Positions 3,413 through 44,386 of a stretch of 64,000 bases of DNA are shown here, piece after piece. A program made the translations under genes and the position numbers. Positions within the stretch are counted from its first letter, which is position 1; every line of letters starts with the position of its first letter. Source of the stretch: Comamonas granuli NBRC 101663 (GTDB taxonomy: Bacteria > Pseudomonadota > Gammaproteobacteria > Burkholderiales > Burkholderiaceae_C); contig NZ_BBJX01000005.1 of assembly GCF_000739995.1 (NCBI RefSeq), positions 124,001 through 188,000 of the forward strand. Reading direction: 5' to 3'. A model generated the notes under the pieces. It searched no databases. It saw only the letters and a list, made by a program, of their open reading frames with translations, and was not told the DNA's origin.

Positions 3413-4582
3413 GTGCTTTTGTCTCTACAGGGACGCTTCCCTCCCGCCATCCTGGCGCTCGCAGACGGCACGGTCTTTGTCGGCAGCTCGATCGGTGCCC
3501 CCGGCACCACCGTCGGTGAAGTGGTGTTCAACACCGCCATGACCGGCTACCAGGAAATCCTCACGGACCCCAGCTATTGCCAGCAATTGGTGACCTTCAC
3601 CTACCCGCACATCGGCAACTATGGCGTCAACCCCGAGGATGTCGAGTCCGGCAAGATCCAGGCCGCGGGCCTGATCATCAAGGACCTGCCGCTGATCGCC
3701 AGCAACTTCCGCAGCACCGAGACGCTGCCCGCCTACCTCGCGCGCGAGGGCACGGTGGCCATTGCCGACATCGACACGCGCCGCCTCACGCGCCTGCTGC
3801 GCAGCCAGGGCACGCAGAACGGCGCCATCGTCGCCCTCGCCGCGGGCGAGAGCGTGACGCAGGCGCACATCGACGCCGCGGTGGCTGCCGCCCAGGCCGC
3901 GCCCAGCATGGCGGGGCTGGACCTGGCCAAGGTGGTCAGCACCCCCCAGGCCTACGAGTGGACGCAGACCGAATGGCAGCTCGGCGCAGGCTTCGGCACG
4001 CTGCAGGAGCCGCGCTTTCACGTGGTGGCCTACGACTTCGGCGTGAAGAAGAACATCCTGCGCATGCTCTCCAGCCGCGGCTGCCGCGTGACGGTGGTGC
4101 CCGCCCAGACCAGCGCCGCCGAGGTGCTGGCCATGAACCCGGACGGGGTCTTCCTCTCCAACGGCCCGGGCGACCCCGAGCCTTGCGATTACGCCATTGC
4201 CGCCACGCGCACCCTCATCGACAGCGGCATTCCCCTGTTCGGCATCTGCCTGGGGCACCAGATCATGGCGCTGGCCTCGGGGGCGCGCACCTTCAAGATG
4301 GCGCACGGCCACCACGGCGCCAACCACCCCGTCAAGGACCTGGACTCGGGCCGCGTCTCCATCACCAGCCAGAACCACGGCTTCGCCGTCGATCTGGACT
4401 CGCTGCCCGCCTGCCTGCGGCCCACGCACGTGAGCCTGTTCGACGGCACGCTGCAGGGCCTGGTGCGCACCGACAAGCCGGCGTTCTGCTTCCAGGGCCA
4501 CCCCGAGGCGCTGCCCGGGCCGCACGACATCGGCTACCTGTTCGACCGCTTCACCCAGGCCATGCGCGTGGCCAAGGCCTGA
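3413..4582 (+). CDS. carA: Carbamoyl-phosphate synthase small (glutaminase) subunit
   Basis: Hydrolyses glutamine and channels ammonia to CarB for carbamoyl phosphate, the precursor of pyrimidines and arginine. 389 residues. The N-terminal CarA domain ([15 protein letters not shown]) is followed by a class I glutamine amidotransferase domain with nucleophile Cys in FGICLGHQ and the His-Glu pair in [14 protein letters not shown] start at 3413 is chosen because the usual N-terminus ([18 protein letters not shown]) begins there and GGAGAA lies 6 bases upstream; the open frame extends further 5' without homology. It is followed by a small conserved ORF and then carB. Confidence 0.97.
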
Positions 4583-4605
4583 ACCAGCGAGCAAGGTCCC
4601 AGGCC

Positions 4606-4998
4606 ATGAAACTCTTCAGCTTCCCCCAGGCGATGCTCGAGAAGGCGATCCACAAGCGCATGCTCACCCTGCCTGCGCCGCACCGCGAGTGGTTCGCCGA
4701 GCGCTGGCAGCAAAAGCCCTACAAGAAGGCCTTTCTGGAAAACAAGGCCATGCCGCTGGTCACCCTCGTGGCCAAGGGCAAGACCTGGGACGAAGCCACC
4801 TTCGCCGAGGCGCTGCAGGAGTGGAACGTCACGTTCCACCTTGCCGAGGTCGAGGTGCTGCGCCCCCTGGTGCAAGGCGATGGCCTGCTGCAACTGATGC
4901 AGAAGAACCTGCCTGCCGCGCGTGCGCAGGCCCTGCTGGACAAGCTCGATTCCCCCCGCCCTGGCGCGCTCCCCGCTGCCGCCGCCGCGACCGACTGA
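4606..4998 (+). CDS. Conserved hypothetical protein between carA and carB
   Basis: 130 residues, starting [21 protein letters not shown] do not recognise a named domain. The sequence is charged and probably soluble and helical, with no signal peptide or membrane segment; an Ala/Pro-rich tail ends the protein. It sits 23 bases after carA and 8 bases before carB in the same direction, so it must be transcribed with the carbamoyl-phosphate synthase genes. Codon use is typical of the host. A role linked to CarAB is only suggested by position. Confidence 0.8.
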
Positions 4999-5006
4999 AA
5001 CACACC

Positions 5007-8252
<3,246 letters not shown>

Positions 8253-8287
8253 GCGGCAATTCGCGGCATAATGGCGCCGATCTGAAG

Positions 8288-8320
8288 ACCGCCGCGCGGC
8301 AACGCGCGGCGGTTTCCCTT
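8288..8320 (+). terminator. Rho-independent terminator after carB
   Basis: A ten-base GC stem (CCGCCGCGCG at 8289-8298, pairing with 8303-8312) closes a GCAA tetraloop and is followed by TTTCCCTTTTG. It separates the car operon from greA. Confidence 0.8.
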
Positions 8321-8376
8321 TTGTTGGGGCCGCCTGCCTGCGGCGTGCCCGTTTGATGACCATGGAGACCGACTGT

Positions 8377-8853
8377 ATGGCCACCCTTCCCATCACCAAG
8401 CGCGGCGCCGAGAAGCTCAAGGCCGAGCTGCAGCGCCTCAAGACCGTGGACCGCCCGGCAGTGATCAACGCCATTGCCGAGGCGCGCGCGCAGGGCGACC
8501 TGAGCGAGAACGCCGAATACGACGCCGCCAAGGACCGCCAGGGCTTCATCGAGGGCCGCATCCAGGAGATCGAGGGCAAGCTCTCGGCGGCGCAGATCAT
8601 CGACCCCGCCGCCCTCGACGCCGGCGGCCGCGTGGTCTTCGGCGCCACCGTGGAGCTCGAGGACGAGGACACGGGCGACGCCGTGCGCTACCAGATCGTG
8701 GGCGAGGACGAGGCCGACCTCAAGCAGGGCCTGATCAACATCGGCAGTCCCATCGCGCGCGCCCTCATCGGCAAGGAGCAGGGCGACACCGCCGAGGTGC
8801 AGGCGCCCGGCGGCGTGCGCCGCTACGAGATCGTCGGCGTGCGCTATGTGTGA
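8377..8853 (+). CDS. greA: Transcription elongation factor GreA
   Basis: Binds in the RNA polymerase secondary channel and stimulates cleavage of the nascent RNA in backtracked complexes. 158 residues, exactly the usual length. The N-terminal coiled coil carries the conserved tip ([22 protein letters not shown]) with the acidic residues that complete the polymerase active site; the C-terminal FKBP-like domain follows. The ATG at 8377 ([14 protein letters not shown]) is preferred over in-frame starts at 8353, 8356 and 8362, since it matches the family start and GGAGA lies about 8 bases ahead. Confidence 0.97.
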
Positions 8854-8876
8854 GAGGCTGCCGGGGGGAGGGCGCC

Positions 8877-9299
8877 ATGCGTGAACGCCTTCCCGTGCTG
8901 GCCGCTGCGCTGTGGTGGGGCAGCCTGTCGGCCATCGGCTTTGTGGCGGTGCCGCTGCTGTTTGCGCACCTGCCCACGCCCGCGCTGGCCGGCCAGACCG
9001 CGGCGCGCCTGTTCGAGGCGCAGACTTACATTTCGATAGCGTGTTGCGCTTGCCTGCTCTTGCTTTCCAAGCGGAAACATGCTGAAACCGAAGAAAAATG
9101 GGCGCGAGAAGCTATGGTTTTCATAGTCCTCGGCCTGCTGCTGGCCCTGCTGGTGCAGTACGGCGTGGCGCCGCGCATCCTCGCGCGGCACAACCTCAAG
9201 CTCTGGCACGGCGCGGGTACTGCGATGTATGCGGCGCAGTGGCTGTGCGCCCTGGCCGTGCTGTGGCGCACCGCCAAGCCAGGGACAACACCCCCCTGA
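8877..9299 (+). CDS. DUF4149 membrane protein
   Basis: 140 residues with about four hydrophobic segments (roughly 5-30, 48-64, 78-98, 112-132), so an inner-membrane protein; no function is known for the family. The ATG at 8877 follows a strong GGGGGGAGGG ribosome-binding site, 23 bases after greA, suggesting co-transcription. The loop between the second and third membrane segments (SKRKHAETEEKWAREAM) is encoded by a double copy of the dispersed palindromic repeat and is unusually polar and charged. The gene ends in a convergent repeat region. Confidence 0.85.
   Translation: MRERLPVLAAALWWGSLSAIGFVAVPLLFAHLPTPALAGQTAARLFEAQTYISIACCACLLLLSKRKHAETEEKWAREAMVFIVLGLLLALLVQYGVAPRILARHNLKLWHGAGTAMYAAQWLCALAVLWRTAKPGTTPP
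9023..9126. repeat. Double copy of the dispersed repeat inside the DUF4149 gene
   Basis: One arm reads CGATAGCGTGTTGCGCTTG on the + strand; the opposing arm GCGCGAGAAGCTATGG lies near 9103 and is the inverse of the family start. The two arms flank an A-rich centre. The whole element is translated. Confidence 0.65.
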
Positions 9300-9400
9300 G
9301 CGGCTGCGCCGCTTCTCTCGCATCGCTTGCGCGCTGCGGGAAGGGGACGACGCCAGCGCGGCGCGGCGTCCCGCTCCAGCGGCCATGGCGCAGCGTATGA
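9291..9400. repeat. GC-rich dyad repeat between convergent genes
   Basis: Begins CCCCCCTGAGCGGCTGCGCC. It contains a short hairpin (CGGC-TGC-GCCG) and a longer dyad of GGGACGACGCC against GGCGCGGCGTCCC. This resembles a second family of intergenic repeats common in Comamonadaceae. It lies between the DUF4149 gene and a convergent glycosyltransferase gene, where it could act as a two-way terminator. Confidence 0.55.
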
Positions 9401-9415
9401 AGAACGGACAGGCTC

Positions 9416-10165
9416 TTATTCGTGCCAGTGCTCGGCCACCCAGGTGGCGGGCCGGATGAAGCGAAAGCGCCGATTGCGCCGGCCTGCCAGGGCGTCGGGC
9501 GGATTGCATTCGCCATGGAAGATCACCACGCGCGCGCCCGGGGGCACGAAGGGCGCCTTCCAGTAGTTGCTGGGCCAGCGCGGGATGCTGTGGTACTTGA
9601 AACTCGGGCACCAGTCCTTGGGCCAGTAGCGCAGCTTGCCCTGGCGGTGCAGAAAGTCCGACAGGTAGGCCTGCTCGTTGCGAAAGCGCTGGCGGATCTC
9701 GGCGAAATGGCCGCGGAAGTACTCCAGCACGTCCGGGTGCGCGCCGAGCTCGAAGCGGTACACCGAGGAGTTGCCCGTGATGCGCCAGGGGCGCTTGTAG
9801 TCGTGGATGATGAGGAACTCGCCCGGCTCGGTGAAGAACGGGTCCAGGCTGCCGGTGACGACCACGTCGACGTCCAGGAACAGGGCCGTACCGTGCAGGC
9901 CGTGCAGGTCAGCGCTGAAGGTGGCCAGCTTGTTCCAGCCGCGCTCGGGAATGCCCTCGGGCAGGTCCAGCGGCGGGATGGGCAGGCAGCGCACCTCGGG
10001 GCGGATGCCGTGGGCGTCGTCGGTGAGGCAGACGAACTGGAACTCGCCGCTCAGGTGGCGGCGCACCATGGCGTAGAGCCGGTTGACGTACTCGGGGCCG
10101 TACTTGGTGCCCCACTTCATGCACAGCACATGGCGCTGCGCCGCCTTGCCGGGGGTGTCCTGCAT
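9416..10165 (-). CDS. Putative glycosyltransferase (DXD-type)
   Basis: 249 residues, no signal peptide or membrane segment. The segment [17 protein letters not shown] contains a DVD metal/nucleotide-sugar motif typical of GT-A fold enzymes, preceded by FVCLTDD, a pattern seen in GT8-like and related uncharacterised glycosyltransferases. The C-terminal part is rich in Trp, Arg and Pro. The acceptor is unknown; involvement in surface polysaccharide or LPS is a guess. It lies 4 bases downstream of yhbY on the same strand, so both are probably one transcript. Confidence 0.7.
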
Positions 10166-36572: not shown

Positions 36573-37991
36573 TCAGGAAGCAGATCCATAGGGAGTGAAC
36601 TGGCTGCGGTTTTCGTCCACGGCGAGAGAGCGCCCCACGTAAGGAAATGCGCGCTGAGGGCAGTTTTCGCGCTCGCAGACCTTGCAGCCCATGCCGATGG
36701 GGGTGGCCGCCTCCGGGTCCTGCAGGTCCAGCCCCTGGGCATAGACCAGGCGCTGCGCGTGGCGAATGTCGCAGCCCAGGCCGATGGAGAAGTTCTTGCC
36801 CGGTGCGCCGTAGCCGCGCTGGCCGCCCGAGACGGTGCGTGCAATCCACAGGTAGCGCCGCCCGTCTGGCATGGAGGCGATCTGGCGCAACACGCGCTCG
36901 GGCTGGCTGAATGCCTCATACACGTTCCACAGCGGGCAGGTGCCGCCGGTGCGGCTGAAGTGGAAGTGCGTGGCCGACTGGCGCTTGCTGATGTTGCCCG
37001 CCCGGTCCACGCGCACCAGAAAGAACGGCACTCCCGGTGCGTCGGTACGTTGCAGCGTGGAGAGGCGATGGCAGACGGTTTCAAAGCCTACGCCAAAGCG
37101 CTGTTGCAGCAGCTCGATGTCGTAGCGCAGCGACTCGGCGGCGGCAAGAAAAGCGCCATAGGGCAGCAGCAGCGCCCCGGCGTAGTAGTTTGCCAGCCCG
37201 ACGCGAGCGAGTTTGCGCGCGGGCTCGCCGGCCTGCGCCAGGAAGGGTTCGTCCAGGCAGCGCAGGAAGGTTTCTTCCTGCTCCAGCAGCGCCAGTTGCG
37301 TGGCCAGCTCAAAGGCTTGCTGGGCGGGCGTCAAGCCGTCGGCCAGCATCAAGGTGCGCGTGCCGGGGTCGAAGCGGCGTTTGCTGCCCCCTGCCGCGTC
37401 GCCGCTTTGCACGCTTACACCGTGGCTGGTGTGCAGGCGCTGCACCAGCCAGGGTGCCAGGGCACCGCTGGCCAGGCGGGGGGCTTGCGCGGCCAGGGCT
37501 TCGGCGGCGCGGTCTACGCTGTCCACATAGTTCCTGTGTGCGAAGAAGAAGTCGCGCACCACCTCGTAAGGCATGGCTGGGGCCAGCGCGGCCTGGCTGC
37601 GCCCGTCTCCCAGGCGCAGCGCCAGGGTTTCGATGCGCTCCTGGGCCTGCTGGCGTTGCTGCTGGAGCGCCACGATGGCCTGGCCCAGCGCAGGCATTTG
37701 CGTTACCACCTGCTGCAGTTCGGGCAGGGGTACGGGGGTGGGGGCGTCGGCCAGAGCCTCGCGCAGGGCAGCCAGCAGGCGCGCCTCCTCGTCTTCGGAG
37801 AACTGCTGGATGTCCACTCCCAGCACGCGGTGCAGCTTGAGCAGCACCTGCACGGTCAGCGGGCGCTGGTTCTGCTCGATCTGATTGAGGTAGCTGGGGG
37901 AGATTTCCAGCGCTTGCGCCAGCGCCGTCTGCGACAGGCCGCGCTCGGCGCGCAGGCTGCGCAATTTGACGCCCATGAAGATCTTTTTCAT
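36573..37991 (-). CDS. Short-chain fatty acyl-CoA regulator (ScfR/RamB family)
   Basis: 472 residues: N-terminal Xre-type HTH (LRSLRAERGLSQTALAQALE, then SPSYLNQIEQNQRPLTV), a central IrrE-like domain, and the C-terminal domain with GCKVCERENCPQRAFP, a cysteine cluster typical of the family. Relatives (RamB, PccR) control propionyl-CoA or acetate use. Its place ahead of the methylcitrate genes, and shared TTYGC-WAAA-TTNGC sites upstream of itself and of that operon, support control of propionate metabolism. The two loci are now separated by the decayed nrd region. Confidence 0.9.
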   Translation of the reverse strand: MKKIFMGVKLRSLRAERGLSQTALAQALEISPSYLNQIEQNQRPLTVQVLLKLHRVLGVDIQQFSEDEEARLLAALREALADAPTPVPLPELQQVVTQMPALGQAIVALQQQRQQAQERIETLALRLGDGRSQAALAPAMPYEVVRDFFFAHRNYVDSVDRAAEALAAQAPRLASGALAPWLVQRLHTSHGVSVQSGDAAGGSKRRFDPGTRTLMLADGLTPAQQAFELATQLALLEQEETFLRCLDEPFLAQAGEPARKLARVGLANYYAGALLLPYGAFLAAAESLRYDIELLQQRFGVGFETVCHRLSTLQRTDAPGVPFFLVRVDRAGNISKRQSATHFHFSRTGGTCPLWNVYEAFSQPERVLRQIASMPDGRRYLWIARTVSGGQRGYGAPGKNFSIGLGCDIRHAQRLVYAQGLDLQDPEAATPIGMGCKVCERENCPQRAFPYVGRSLAVDENRSQFTPYGSAS

Positions 37992-38176: not shown

Positions 38177-38322
38177 ATTATCAGGTTCGCCGCAGTCCCG
38201 GCGGCCACCGCCAACTGCATGGGCCGCCTTGCGCACGTCAGCGAGGGGGGGGTAGGGGGCGCGCTCTGAACCCAGACGCTGCGCAGTCCTCTCCATGCAT
38301 TTGATCCACAGCTCCCAAAAAA

Positions 38323-38370
38323 ACACCATAGGTAGTGATTCGATGATGGGCGAAACACTATATAGTCGGC
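38323..38370 (+). promoter_or_regulatory. Pair of NrdR boxes with overlapping -10
   Basis: Box 1 ACACCATAGGTAGTGA (38323-38338) and box 2 ACACTATATAGTCGGC (38355-38370) each match 12 of 16 positions of the NrdR consensus and are 32 bases apart start to start, the normal spacing. TATAGT in box 2 is a plausible -10, so bound NrdR would block transcription into the riboswitch that follows. Confidence 0.65.
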
Positions 38371-38567
38371 ATGTCGGTAGTTGCTCCATGATCCGGAGTG
38401 ACTTGAAAAGGGAATCTGGTGCAAGTCCGGAACTGCCCCGCAGCGGTAAGCGGAAACGAAATGTCTCAATGGCACTGGGTCTTCAAGGCCTGGGAAGCGG
38501 GGCAAAGTAGGTGTGCCCGAGTCAATCAGGTACGTGTCCGCACAGTCCGAAGACCTGCCGACACACC
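38369..38567 (+). ncRNA. Cobalamin (B12) riboswitch
   Basis: The conserved core is clear: GGTGCAAGTCCGGAACTGCC, CCCGCAGCGGTAAGCGG, CACTGGG, CCTGGGAAG and the 3' B12-box end AGTCCGAAGACCTGCC. P1 is formed by GGCATGTCGGTAG (38369-38381) and CTGCCGACACACC (38555-38567). It reads to the right, directly after the NrdR boxes, as expected for a B12-repressed class I ribonucleotide reductase operon. No intact gene follows; downstream is antisense to the nrdB fragment. Confidence 0.9.
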
Positions 38568-38689
38568 TGGCAGCCGCTGGTTCGTCTTGTGACGAGATGA
38601 CGCAGCGCCGCAGGTGCGGGTGCATGCTTTCGCGGGAGAGCGCGCTGCCAGTCCGGAACGGTCCGGTGATGTGCAGTTGCCGCGCGAGT

Positions 38690-39435
38690 TCACGCTCGGT
38701 TGCGAGCTCGTTCTGCAGTACGGCGCGATCGAGCTCGACGTGGATTTCAAGCTCGTCCTGTGCAATTTTCTGGATCGCTTTGCCAATGGGCTGGAACAGG
38801 CCCGTGTCGCAAATGGCAAAGGTAATGGCAAAGCTCGCCATGAACTGGATGCGTTCCATGCACAGTAGCGCCACGATGGTCATGAACACCGCGTTGTAGG
38901 TGGCTTGGTCATTGGGTAACTGGCCGATCGCGTATTTGTGCGAGGCCTCGTAGCCGACGGCAAAGGCGCGCGCCACTTCGCTCAGGCGGTCGTGTGCTTC
39001 CTGAACACGCAGGATCTCATCCAGGATGACACTGGGGTCGTCGAACGAATTGCGCACGATCTCGGAGTAGGTGGCGGCGTGCACCACCTCGTTGTCGGAG
39101 ATGCGTTGCCAAGCGGCCCAAAGCTCGCTGGACGTGATGAAGGGCGCGAGCACCGGGGCGATGGCGCGCGAAGCCACCGAGTCGGCCTCCCACTGCCAGG
39201 CCAGGGTCTTGATCATCATGTCGTAGGTGGCACGTGAGCAGGACTTGAACTCGGCATTGCAGGAGGAGTAGTCGAACTCGTTCTCGTCCCAGTCGAGCGA
39301 TTTCTGCGCCTTGTACAGCTTCCAGATCTCGGGGTAGTGGCGATTGACGGTATCGAACAGCCCGGGGCGCTGGCCCAGCAGCAGCGAGGGCTTTTGGTAG
39401 TCGGTCTTGTCGTAGTTGAAGACGGTATCGGTCAT
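38690..39435 (-). pseudogene. nrdB: 3'-truncated class I ribonucleotide reductase beta subunit
   Basis: Starts normally at ATG 39435 (TDTVFNYDKTDYQKPSLLLG) and keeps about 248 residues of ~350-376, including the metal-site helices: LAWQWEADSVAS, NEVVHAATYSEIV (Glu-x2-His-x3-Tyr, the radical tyrosine spacing), LLCMERIQFM and AQDELEIHVEL. Homology stops near 38690 after NELATERE. The C-terminal part, including the tail that docks on NrdA, is gone. The frame stays open to 37999, through the antisense of the riboswitch and NrdR boxes, giving a chimeric 478-residue ORF whose second half resembles nothing. Orientation is opposite to the riboswitch. Start is 19 bases after the nrdA fragment. Confidence 0.8.
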
Positions 39436-39454
39436 GGTCGTAATCGGTTGGGGA

Positions 39455-39861
39455 TCAGAGGGTGCAGGCTTCGCAATCGCTGTCGGTCGTATCGGCACTG
39501 ACTGCCGCTTTGGCCGCGGGCATGGCCACGGCCGCCAGATCGGCCACCGCCTTCATGCCGTTGGAGGTCTTCTGGTTCATGTAGTACTTGGACTTCAGGC
39601 CCAGCTTGACGCGGTAGAGGTAGTCCTCGATCAGCTCGGTGGTGGCGATGGAGGCGTCACCGATCACCCGGCGGTAGAAGTCCGCCGAGATTCCTTGGTC
39701 GGTCCACTTCTGCACGATGGCATAGAGCTCGGTCATGTCGCGTGCAGGAATATCCCAGGCCGACTGGTACTGCCCGGCCAGCGTGTCGCTGTCGGGAGCG
39801 GCCCAGTAGTTCACGCGCTGGTTGTCGGTCTTGATGAGCGTGAGCTCGCGCACCGGGTACG
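39455..39861 (-). pseudogene. nrdA: 5'-truncated class I ribonucleotide reductase alpha subunit (C-terminal fragment)
   Basis: About 135 residues matching only the C-terminus of class Ia NrdA: PARDMTELYAIVQKWTDQGI, then the YYMN segment and the redox-active tail DCEACTL that reduces the active site. More than 80% of the protein, with all catalytic cysteines of the barrel, is missing. Homology begins near 39861 (VRELTLIKTD); the frame continues a little upstream to 39943 with unrelated sequence. It is followed by the nrdB fragment on the same strand, so this is an operon remnant cut at both outer ends. Confidence 0.8.
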
Positions 39862-39987
39862 GCAGCCTATGTGGGTGACTATGAGGCATTACGCCAGATG
39901 CTGAGGACCAGCACTGCACGTGCTTAAGTGGCGGCGTATTCAAGATGGACGCTGAAGCTTGTCTTCACACAGGGTCTTCCTGAAAAA

Positions 39988-40081
39988 ATTCGCTAAATTT
40001 GCAAGACAAGGGGGTTTCGCTTTACAGGATTTCGCCTTTTTAACCCTGTTCCTGAGGTGATTTTCTGCGTAAATTGCGAAG
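39988..40081 (+). promoter_or_regulatory. Candidate ScfR operators before the thioesterase-prpC operon
   Basis: ATTCGCTAAATTTGCAAG (39988-40005) and TCTGCGTAAATTGCGAAG (40064-40081) match the sites found upstream of the ScfR-type regulator; their starts are 76 bases apart. The second ends one base before the ATG of the thioesterase gene, so binding would block initiation. Two TTTCGC direct repeats lie between them. Confidence 0.6.
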
Positions 40082-40082
40082 C

Positions 40083-40481
40083 ATGACAACACCCCATGGA
40101 ACCGCAGAAACGCGCGAACTGGTGCTGCCGGCGCAGGCCAACCACCACGGCACCCTGTTTGCTGGGCAGGGCCTGCAACTGATGGCCCAGGCCGCCTTTC
40201 TGGCCGCGCGCGGCCTGGCGCAGCGCGAGGTGGTGATGGCCGGCGTGACGGGCGTGGACTTCCTCGCACCTGTGCCGGTCGGCAGCCAGCTCACCTTGCG
40301 CAGCTGGGTCAGCCGCGTGGGCCGCAGCTCCATGACCGTGTGCGTGACCGGGCTGGCCGACCAGCCAGGCATTGCGTCCGAAGAGGTGTTGAAAGGGGTG
40401 TTCGAGATGGTGGCGGTGGATGCCGCCCGCCGTCCCGTCGCCATCGCATGTTCTTATCGCAACCAGGAGACCCTCACATGA
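40083..40481 (+). CDS. Hotdog-fold acyl-CoA thioesterase at the head of the prp operon
   Basis: 132 residues. Single hotdog domain of the YciA/ACOT type: [20 protein letters not shown], then [20 protein letters not shown]. It would hydrolyse short acyl-CoA, perhaps propionyl-CoA when the pathway is overloaded, which is inference from position. The ATG at 40083 is preferred over the TTG at 40074. Its stop overlaps the prpC start (ATGA), so translation is coupled to that of methylcitrate synthase. Confidence 0.82.
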
Positions 40482-41641
40482 GCATCCCCACCGCCGAGAC
40501 CGCGGCAGCACCCAAGGTGAAGAAGTCCGTCGCCCTCTCAGGCGTCACGGCTGGCAATACCGCCCTGTGCACCGTGGGCCGCACGGGCAATGACCTGCAC
40601 TACCGCGGCTACGACATCCTCGACATCGCCGAGGTGTGCGAGTTCGAGGAGATTGCCCACCTGCTGGTGCACGGCAAGCTGCCCACACGCGCCGAACTCA
40701 AGGCCTACAAGGCCAAGCTGCGCGCCCTGCGCGGCCTGCCTGGCAGCGTGAAAGCAGCGCTGGAGCAACTGCCCGCCGCCAGCCACCCGATGGACGTGAT
40801 GCGCACCGGCGTTTCGGCCCTGGGCTGCGCGCTGCCCGAGAAGGACGACCACAACCTGCCGGGCGCGCGCGACATTGCCGACCGCCTGATGGCCAGCCTG
40901 GGCAGCATGCTGCTGTACTGGTACCACTTCAGCAATTCGGGCCGCCGCATCGAGGTGGAGACGGAGGACGACTCCATTGGCGGCCACTTTTTGCACCTGC
41001 TGCATGGCGAAAAGCCGCCCGCGCACTGGGTGCGCGCCATGCACACCTCGCTCAACCTGTACGCCGAGCACGAATTCAACGCCAGCACCTTCACCGCCCG
41101 CGTCATCGCAGGCACGGGCAGCGACATGTATTCGAGCATCTCGGGCGCGATTGGCGCGCTGCGCGGCCCCAAGCATGGCGGCGCCAACGAAGTGGCCTTT
41201 GAAATCCAAAAGCGCTACGACAGCCCAGCCGAAGCCGAGGCCGACATCCGCCGCCGCGTGGAGGCCAAGGAGGTGGTGATTGGCTTTGGCCACCCGGTGT
41301 ACACCGTGAGCGACCCGCGCAACGTCATCATCAAGGGCGTGGCCAAGCGCCTGTCCGACGAGGCAGGCAGCACCAAGATGTACGACATTGCCGAGCGGCT
41401 GGAGCAGGTGATGTGGGAGGTGAAAAACATGTTCCCCAACCTCGACTGGTTCAGCGCCGTGAGCTACCACATGATGCAGGTGCCCACCGCCATGTTCACG
41501 CCGCTGTTCGTCATCGCCCGCACCAGCGGCTGGGCGGCGCACGTCATCGAGCAGCGCGTGGACAACAAAATCATCCGCCCCAGCGCCAACTACACCGGCC
41601 CGCAAGACCAGCAGTTCGTGCCGATCGAAGAGCGCCGTTGA
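40478..41641 (+). CDS. prpC: 2-methylcitrate synthase
   Basis: Condenses propionyl-CoA with oxaloacetate, first step of the methylcitrate cycle. 387 residues, the short PrpC form of citrate synthase. Catalytic segments are GPKHGGANE and [13 protein letters not shown] (the two histidines) and the following [17 protein letters not shown]. The N-terminal signature [14 protein letters not shown] is typical of PrpC. ATG 40478 has AGGAGA 8 bases upstream and overlaps the thioesterase stop. Confidence 0.95.

Positions 41642-41758: not shown

Positions 41759-44386
<2,628 letters not shown>

Follow-up and report, generated by a model that had tools for sequence, protein, structure and literature searches.

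Why a ribonucleotide reductase (RNR) control region should face fragments of nrdA and nrdB that run toward it is the question raised by a locus in Comamonas granuli NBRC 101663. Within the 64-kb stretch of DNA analyzed here (the window), tandem NrdR boxes and a cobalamin riboswitch read rightward, and the gene fragments behind them read leftward. A preliminary description explained the arrangement as a single nrdAB operon that had been inverted and mostly deleted. The locus was compared with the rest of the genome, with related genomes, and with intact operons of the same kind.

Anatomy of the remnant

The left neighbor of the remnant is a gene on the minus strand for a RamB-like XRE regulator (36573 to 37991; 578 bits against NF038139, below the cut-off of 700). 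Scanning with an NrdR matrix built from 32 sites of relatives, the window's own sites being kept out, placed the two best loci of the 64 kb at 38323 to 38338 (box 1, plus strand, 17.1 bits, the top site) and 38355 to 38370 (box 2, plus strand, 9.6 bits). Together they score 26.6 bits, versus 8.7 bits for the next-best pair in the window. NrdR box pairs are spaced by about three helical turns, and these start 32 bp apart, the two-box spacing of an NrdR-regulated RNR promoter; the correctly spaced pair of the preliminary description is confirmed.

The aptamer follows on the plus strand at 38358 to 38576, its model start overlapping box 2, and matches RF00174 over model positions 1 to 189 of 189 (104.8 bits against a gathering threshold of 31.5, E = 3.5e-25). 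The native leader continues past the aptamer to approximately 38690 (38577 to 38690), a portion the preliminary description did not recognize, and stops short of the GGCCCTGCGCGNGGGAGCAGG hairpin and nrdA start found in relatives; reversed nrdB comes next. The riboswitch had been called complete, which holds for the aptamer but not for the last conserved hairpin or the start of nrdA, and no expression platform leads into a downstream gene. With both gone, nrdA could not be the output of whatever B12 response remains, but a short B12-responsive RNA from the remnant leader is conceivable.

Box 2 carries one change at a position invariant in 13 relatives, and across the whole leader 1 of the 103 positions invariant in those relatives is altered, versus 0 to 4 when each relative is left out in turn. 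Relative-rate chi-square values were at most 2.8. Decay of the leader was rejected on this lack of excess change. A leader changing no faster than those of relatives fits a recent death and fits continued use as well.

Both gene fragments lie on the minus strand, as the preliminary description had it. The nrdB fragment starts with an ATG at 39435 and is homologous through codon 248 at approximately 38692, while the nrdA fragment comprises the last 134 codons and the stop (39859 to 39455). Thus 248 of about 366 nrdB codons and 134 of about 830 nrdA codons are retained, both reversed, and an intact class Ia operon is not present at this site. Matches of the fragments to RNR families fall short of the full-length cut-offs, as expected of partial genes, and neither fragment contains an internal stop or frameshift.

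Directly after the reversed nrdA, and overlapping the right join by about 4 bases, is a feature missed previously, namely the final 23 or so codons of grx, a gene for an NrdH-like glutaredoxin (39856 to 39927, plus strand). A profile of 16 such genes, whose tails in relatives were also compared, detected it with E = 3.2e-5; of 1304 six-frame peptides, it alone passed the inclusion threshold. Since this tail lies downstream in the orientation of the leader, both outer ends of one operon survive facing the same way. They imply the order NrdR boxes, B12 riboswitch, nrdA, nrdB, and grx, between ramB and thioesterase/prpC. No pair of inverted repeats of at least 14 nt was found within 38200 to 40150, and a phase-variable invertible segment was rejected because its ends lack such repeats.

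To the right lies the prp promoter region (39980 to 40082, plus strand), which matches the ramB-prpC spacer of relatives and contains repeats of the TTTGCAAA/TTGCG type that we take to be RamB sites. It is followed on the plus strand by genes for a thioesterase (40083 to 40481; NF007970, 42.5 bits, below the cut-off of 162), the 2-methylcitrate synthase PrpC (40478 to 41641; NF009006, 722 bits, above cut-off), and the 2-methylisocitrate dehydratase AcnD (41759 to 44386; TIGR02333, 1707 bits, above cut-off).

The intact operon in relatives and its surroundings

Searching genome contigs for the nrdB piece yielded 40 loci, 27 of them with an NrdB piece at least 80% identical, in Comamonas, Rhodanobacter, Thermomonas, and Halopseudomonas, among others. 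This scatter of the class Ia RNR operon over such genera points to horizontal spread, as judged from the matches themselves rather than against a species tree. The tabulation of riboswitches and NrdJ covered 37 loci, L025, L032, and L049 being omitted because the start of nrdA is cut off. NrdR-box-like sites (at most 5 mismatches in 16) lie upstream of nrdA in 36 of the 37, and 14 carry a riboswitch as called by motif, with Rfam confirmation confined to the window, G021 (L037), and G023 (L024). Every one of the 14 riboswitches reads into nrdA and then nrdB on one strand, which, together with the grx tail in the orientation of the leader, upholds the earlier proposal that the control region in the window belonged to an nrdAB operon. 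Next after nrdB is grx in 12 of the 14 (weakly in L055, at 33%); a search of these relatives gave no grx match in L054 and L059.

The leaders of 11 relatives were aligned from the 3' end of the aptamer. In the predicted fold, one stem would borrow part of the closing helix of the aptamer, and further hairpins would lead up to a final one that is nearly invariant; 13 of the 39 pairs show one double change or more. Leaders ranging from Comamonadaceae to Xanthomonadales (L024 to L062, e.g., L033:7430-7640) have about 200 nt beyond the aptamer in common, in which some stems covary and the GGCCCTGCGCGNGGGAGCAGG hairpin is nearly invariant. An Rfam scan of the leaders of five loci at E up to 1 returned no family except the aptamer. 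At L027:900-1330, in Comamonadaceae bacterium CD01, the aptamer before an otherwise intact nrdAB operon is apparently interrupted by an insertion, its core motifs being about 300 nt apart versus about 120 to 140 elsewhere.

NrdJ scored above cut-off in 33 of the 41 genomes searched. It accompanies 14 of 14 riboswitch-bearing relatives versus 17 of 23 without a riboswitch (one-sided Fisher p = 0.043, uncorrected for kinship). NrdJ and the accessory nrdAB share a contig, approximately 2 to 16 kb apart, in G021 (C9), G064 (C28, L029), G088 (C12, L054), and G091 (C79, L057). The nrdJ genes of G064, G069, G074, G076, and G078 show a match split at profile position 281/282 within a single open frame of 1172 to 1360 codons, which suggests an intein.

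Examination of the genome containing the window bore out the expectation that a class II enzyme exists alongside, as required of a B12-repressed backup RNR: a B12-dependent NrdJ is encoded on contig C28 (above the TIGR02504 cut-off), and a separate, intact class Ia NrdAB is encoded on C19 (over the PRK07207 and PRK07209 cut-offs). A second copy of the present kind of nrdAB was rejected, as none was found by DNA and PF02867 detected only the C19 and C28 enzymes and the window fragment. The two other B12 riboswitches of the genome precede cobT and, in the second case, a gene for a BtuB-like receptor (below cut-off) and cobB.

The insert is absent from the same-genus genomes examined. In nine of them ramB faces prpC (the thioesterase gene in G004) over 151 to 265 bp between alignment ends, with no nrd sequence; these are nine of the 11 in which ramB matched strongly, the other two being G011 and G019. 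In the window, the remnant occupies this spacer, with the prp promoter region retained at its right end. In L029, an intact nrd operon sits beside thioesterase and ramB genes. In G023, an intact nrd operon is found directly after prpC-acnD-prpF and a prpB-like gene. Riboswitch-bearing nrd operons therefore border methylcitrate genes or ramB in three genomes (L084 of G023 at 5065-4763, L029 at 3490-9728, and the window at 38323-39927), two of them from the same genus and one a Pseudomonadota MAG, with the operon at three different positions. The proximity is possibly a cluster of B12-independent backups, or chance.

Separate ancestry of the leader and the reversed piece

The intact operon of Acidovorax sp. 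SCN 68-22 (G021, L037) and the reversed 1.17-kb piece share 98.8% identity, with 14 differences in 1172 bases (98.8% for the nrdB fragment and 99.0% for the nrdA fragment). Between the leaders of the window and of SCN 68-22, identity reaches just 73% in the best local match and 61% across the aligned leader. Around nrdJ, the two genomes share stretches of 69 to 85% identity, the two longest at 84.5 to 84.7%, and on the other side stretches of 75 to 86%. Ten of the 12 coding differences from SCN 68-22 are synonymous (8 of 8 in nrdB; two synonymous and two nonsynonymous in nrdA), indicating that the piece derives from a gene that was working until recently. G023 is likewise 98% identical to the final 81 bases of the nrdA piece, although it is 85% identical to that piece as a whole, so that short stretches can look recent.

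Trees of the two parts conflict. The nrd piece of the window groups with that of SCN 68-22 (support 100/100), and the leader groups with those of L029, L024, L031, and L048 (support 100/99). Forcing the nrd tree to the group of the leader gave an AU p of 3e-63; forcing the leader tree to unite the window with SCN 68-22 was modestly rejected (AU p = 0.026, 371 columns). Because its aptamer appears interrupted, L027 was omitted from the two trees and from the count of invariant sites, and was kept in the pairwise identity table. Regressing leader identity on gene identity across 91 pairs (r = -0.12) was uninformative because the genes of every other pair are at most 89% identical, and the trees were used instead.

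The window and SCN 68-22 diverge immediately beyond the joins, at which their agreement is a few bases. In SCN 68-22 the operon sits in an 8-kb block, and the matching site in the window genome lacks this block, with a 32-bp gap between the matches. By these comparisons, two operon lineages are spliced at this locus, and the foreign piece is recent. A phage source of the piece was rejected (best phage NrdB, 62%), as was a plasmid source (best plasmid match, 39%). An NrdB 60 to 62% identical to the accessory bacterial NrdB piece is encoded by large Pseudomonas phages, Phabio among them.

Neither join was found in any of 398 other genomes of the family, which were sampled evenly and may not include a rarer relative; the evidence for the event therefore comes from a single draft assembly. 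A right-join query (39780 to 39990) matched 13 of the 398, none across the join except for two weak 32-base matches that ran 7 bases past it. A leader query (38310 to 38700) matched five, with only G023 matching over a long stretch (76%). This leader query, which served for the left join, extended only about 10 bases beyond it.

Origin of the patchwork and its significance

We consider it likely that the locus is a dead, patched pseudo-operon, that is, a gutted class Ia RNR operon holding a reversed piece of another lineage. An operon of tandem NrdR boxes, B12 riboswitch leader, nrdA, nrdB, and grx would have arrived between ramB and thioesterase/prpC. By analogy with known systems it would have encoded a backup enzyme, repressed by NrdR when dNTPs abound and by the riboswitch when there is B12 for NrdJ to work with. 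Its redundancy beside the intact class Ia NrdAB and NrdJ would have led to its loss and made that loss harmless. Approximately 3.5 to 4 kb, a size estimated from relatives, would have disappeared, comprising the end of the leader, nrdA, nrdB, and most of grx. The gap now contains, in reverse, the 1.17-kb piece, from the same kind of operon in a different lineage and nearly identical to that of SCN 68-22; illegitimate joining at short matches, following uptake of foreign DNA, probably brought it in. No Ku gene was found in the window genome (5 of 26 genus genomes have one), which removes Ku end joining as a route. The comparisons establish the anatomy, the mixed origin, the intact operon of relatives, and the lack of the insert in the same-genus genomes covered. 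We infer the order of these events, their route, and the loss of function, as well as the lineage of the lost native nrdAB, for which the leader and the 23-codon grx tail are the guides.

An assembly or library chimera, in which DNA of an SCN 68-22-like neighbor has been joined into a locus that is truly otherwise and perhaps holds an intact native operon, would account for a piece 98.8% identical to another organism when the stretches around nrdJ reach only 69 to 86%, for joins seen in no other genome searched, and for their occurrence in a 34-contig draft. Assemblers, however, need an overlap far exceeding the few bases on which window and donor agree at the joins, contamination is estimated at 0.15%, and with 14 differing sites in 1172 the piece is not a copy of the SCN 68-22 assembly. 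We regard a chimera as unlikely, and a real chromosomal history as clearly the more probable of the two. The reading of the preliminary description, in which the original operon was simply inverted and mostly deleted, would need leader and genes to share one history and the leader merely to evolve fast; it draws on the leader and nrd genes forming one operon in the 14 riboswitch relatives. It is largely refuted, and we give it very little credence: rate cannot explain a 61 to 73% leader at 98.8% genes when the leader evolves no faster than those of relatives, the leader and gene trees conflict, and inverted repeats are lacking.

There is also a small chance that the remnant has been co-opted, with the NrdR/riboswitch promoter driving a B12-responsive transcript, either as free RNA or through thioesterase-prpC-acnD, the B12-independent propionate route. 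The boxes and aptamer are well preserved, the leader is on the same strand as prpC-acnD, terminator-like sites are not above chance (2 found versus 2.6 expected), the genome also encodes the B12-dependent methylmalonyl-CoA mutase, and operons of this type also adjoin prp genes or ramB in G023 and L029. Against this, such a transcript would have to cross about 1.4 kb of untranslated antisense RNA, of the kind that invites Rho, the prp promoter region is intact immediately before the thioesterase gene, and the last hairpin of the leader is missing. That the stranded leader yields a B12-responsive transcript reaching or acting on the adjacent methylcitrate genes seems highly improbable; if true, such promoter capture would link two B12-free backup pathways.

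For a dead, patched pseudo-operon, the ancestral regulation has precedents. The class Ia nrdABS of Streptomyces coelicolor is under a B12 riboswitch (Borovok et al. 2006, as cited in PMC4991794) and, like the window operon, occurs alongside NrdJ with the cobalamin riboswitch in its leader; as nrdABS is described there, the window operon differs in its tandem NrdR boxes and glutaredoxin-like gene, in its proteobacterial host, and in being a gutted copy. In delta-proteobacteria with NrdJ, B12 elements precede nrdDG (PMC545781), likewise a B12-independent RNR predicted to be B12-repressed where NrdJ exists, although class III rather than class Ia. NrdR boxes are paired before RNR genes in Pseudomonas aeruginosa (PMC4409342), as are the two before the window operon, but in the window they precede a riboswitch and no intact gene stands behind. 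The regulatory RNAs of eut loci contain riboswitches (Mellin 2014, DebRoy 2014, as cited in PMC4991794), so a B12 aptamer need not control a gene in cis, there or in the window leader, the latter being known from sequence alone. With the Streptomyces and nrdDG cases published, the logic of a B12-controlled backup RNR is already known, and what is specific to the window is the gutted, two-lineage patchwork; title searches of the literature gave, among the matches listed, none on this operon in these bacteria.

The locus would represent a redundant backup enzyme under cofactor control, captured not long after it was lost, whose regulatory RNA has outlasted the genes. It suggests, too, that DNA of foreign origin but from the same gene family can be inserted in reverse orientation. 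Should transcription of the leader persist, the locus would be a natural experiment on the behavior of an orphan riboswitch.
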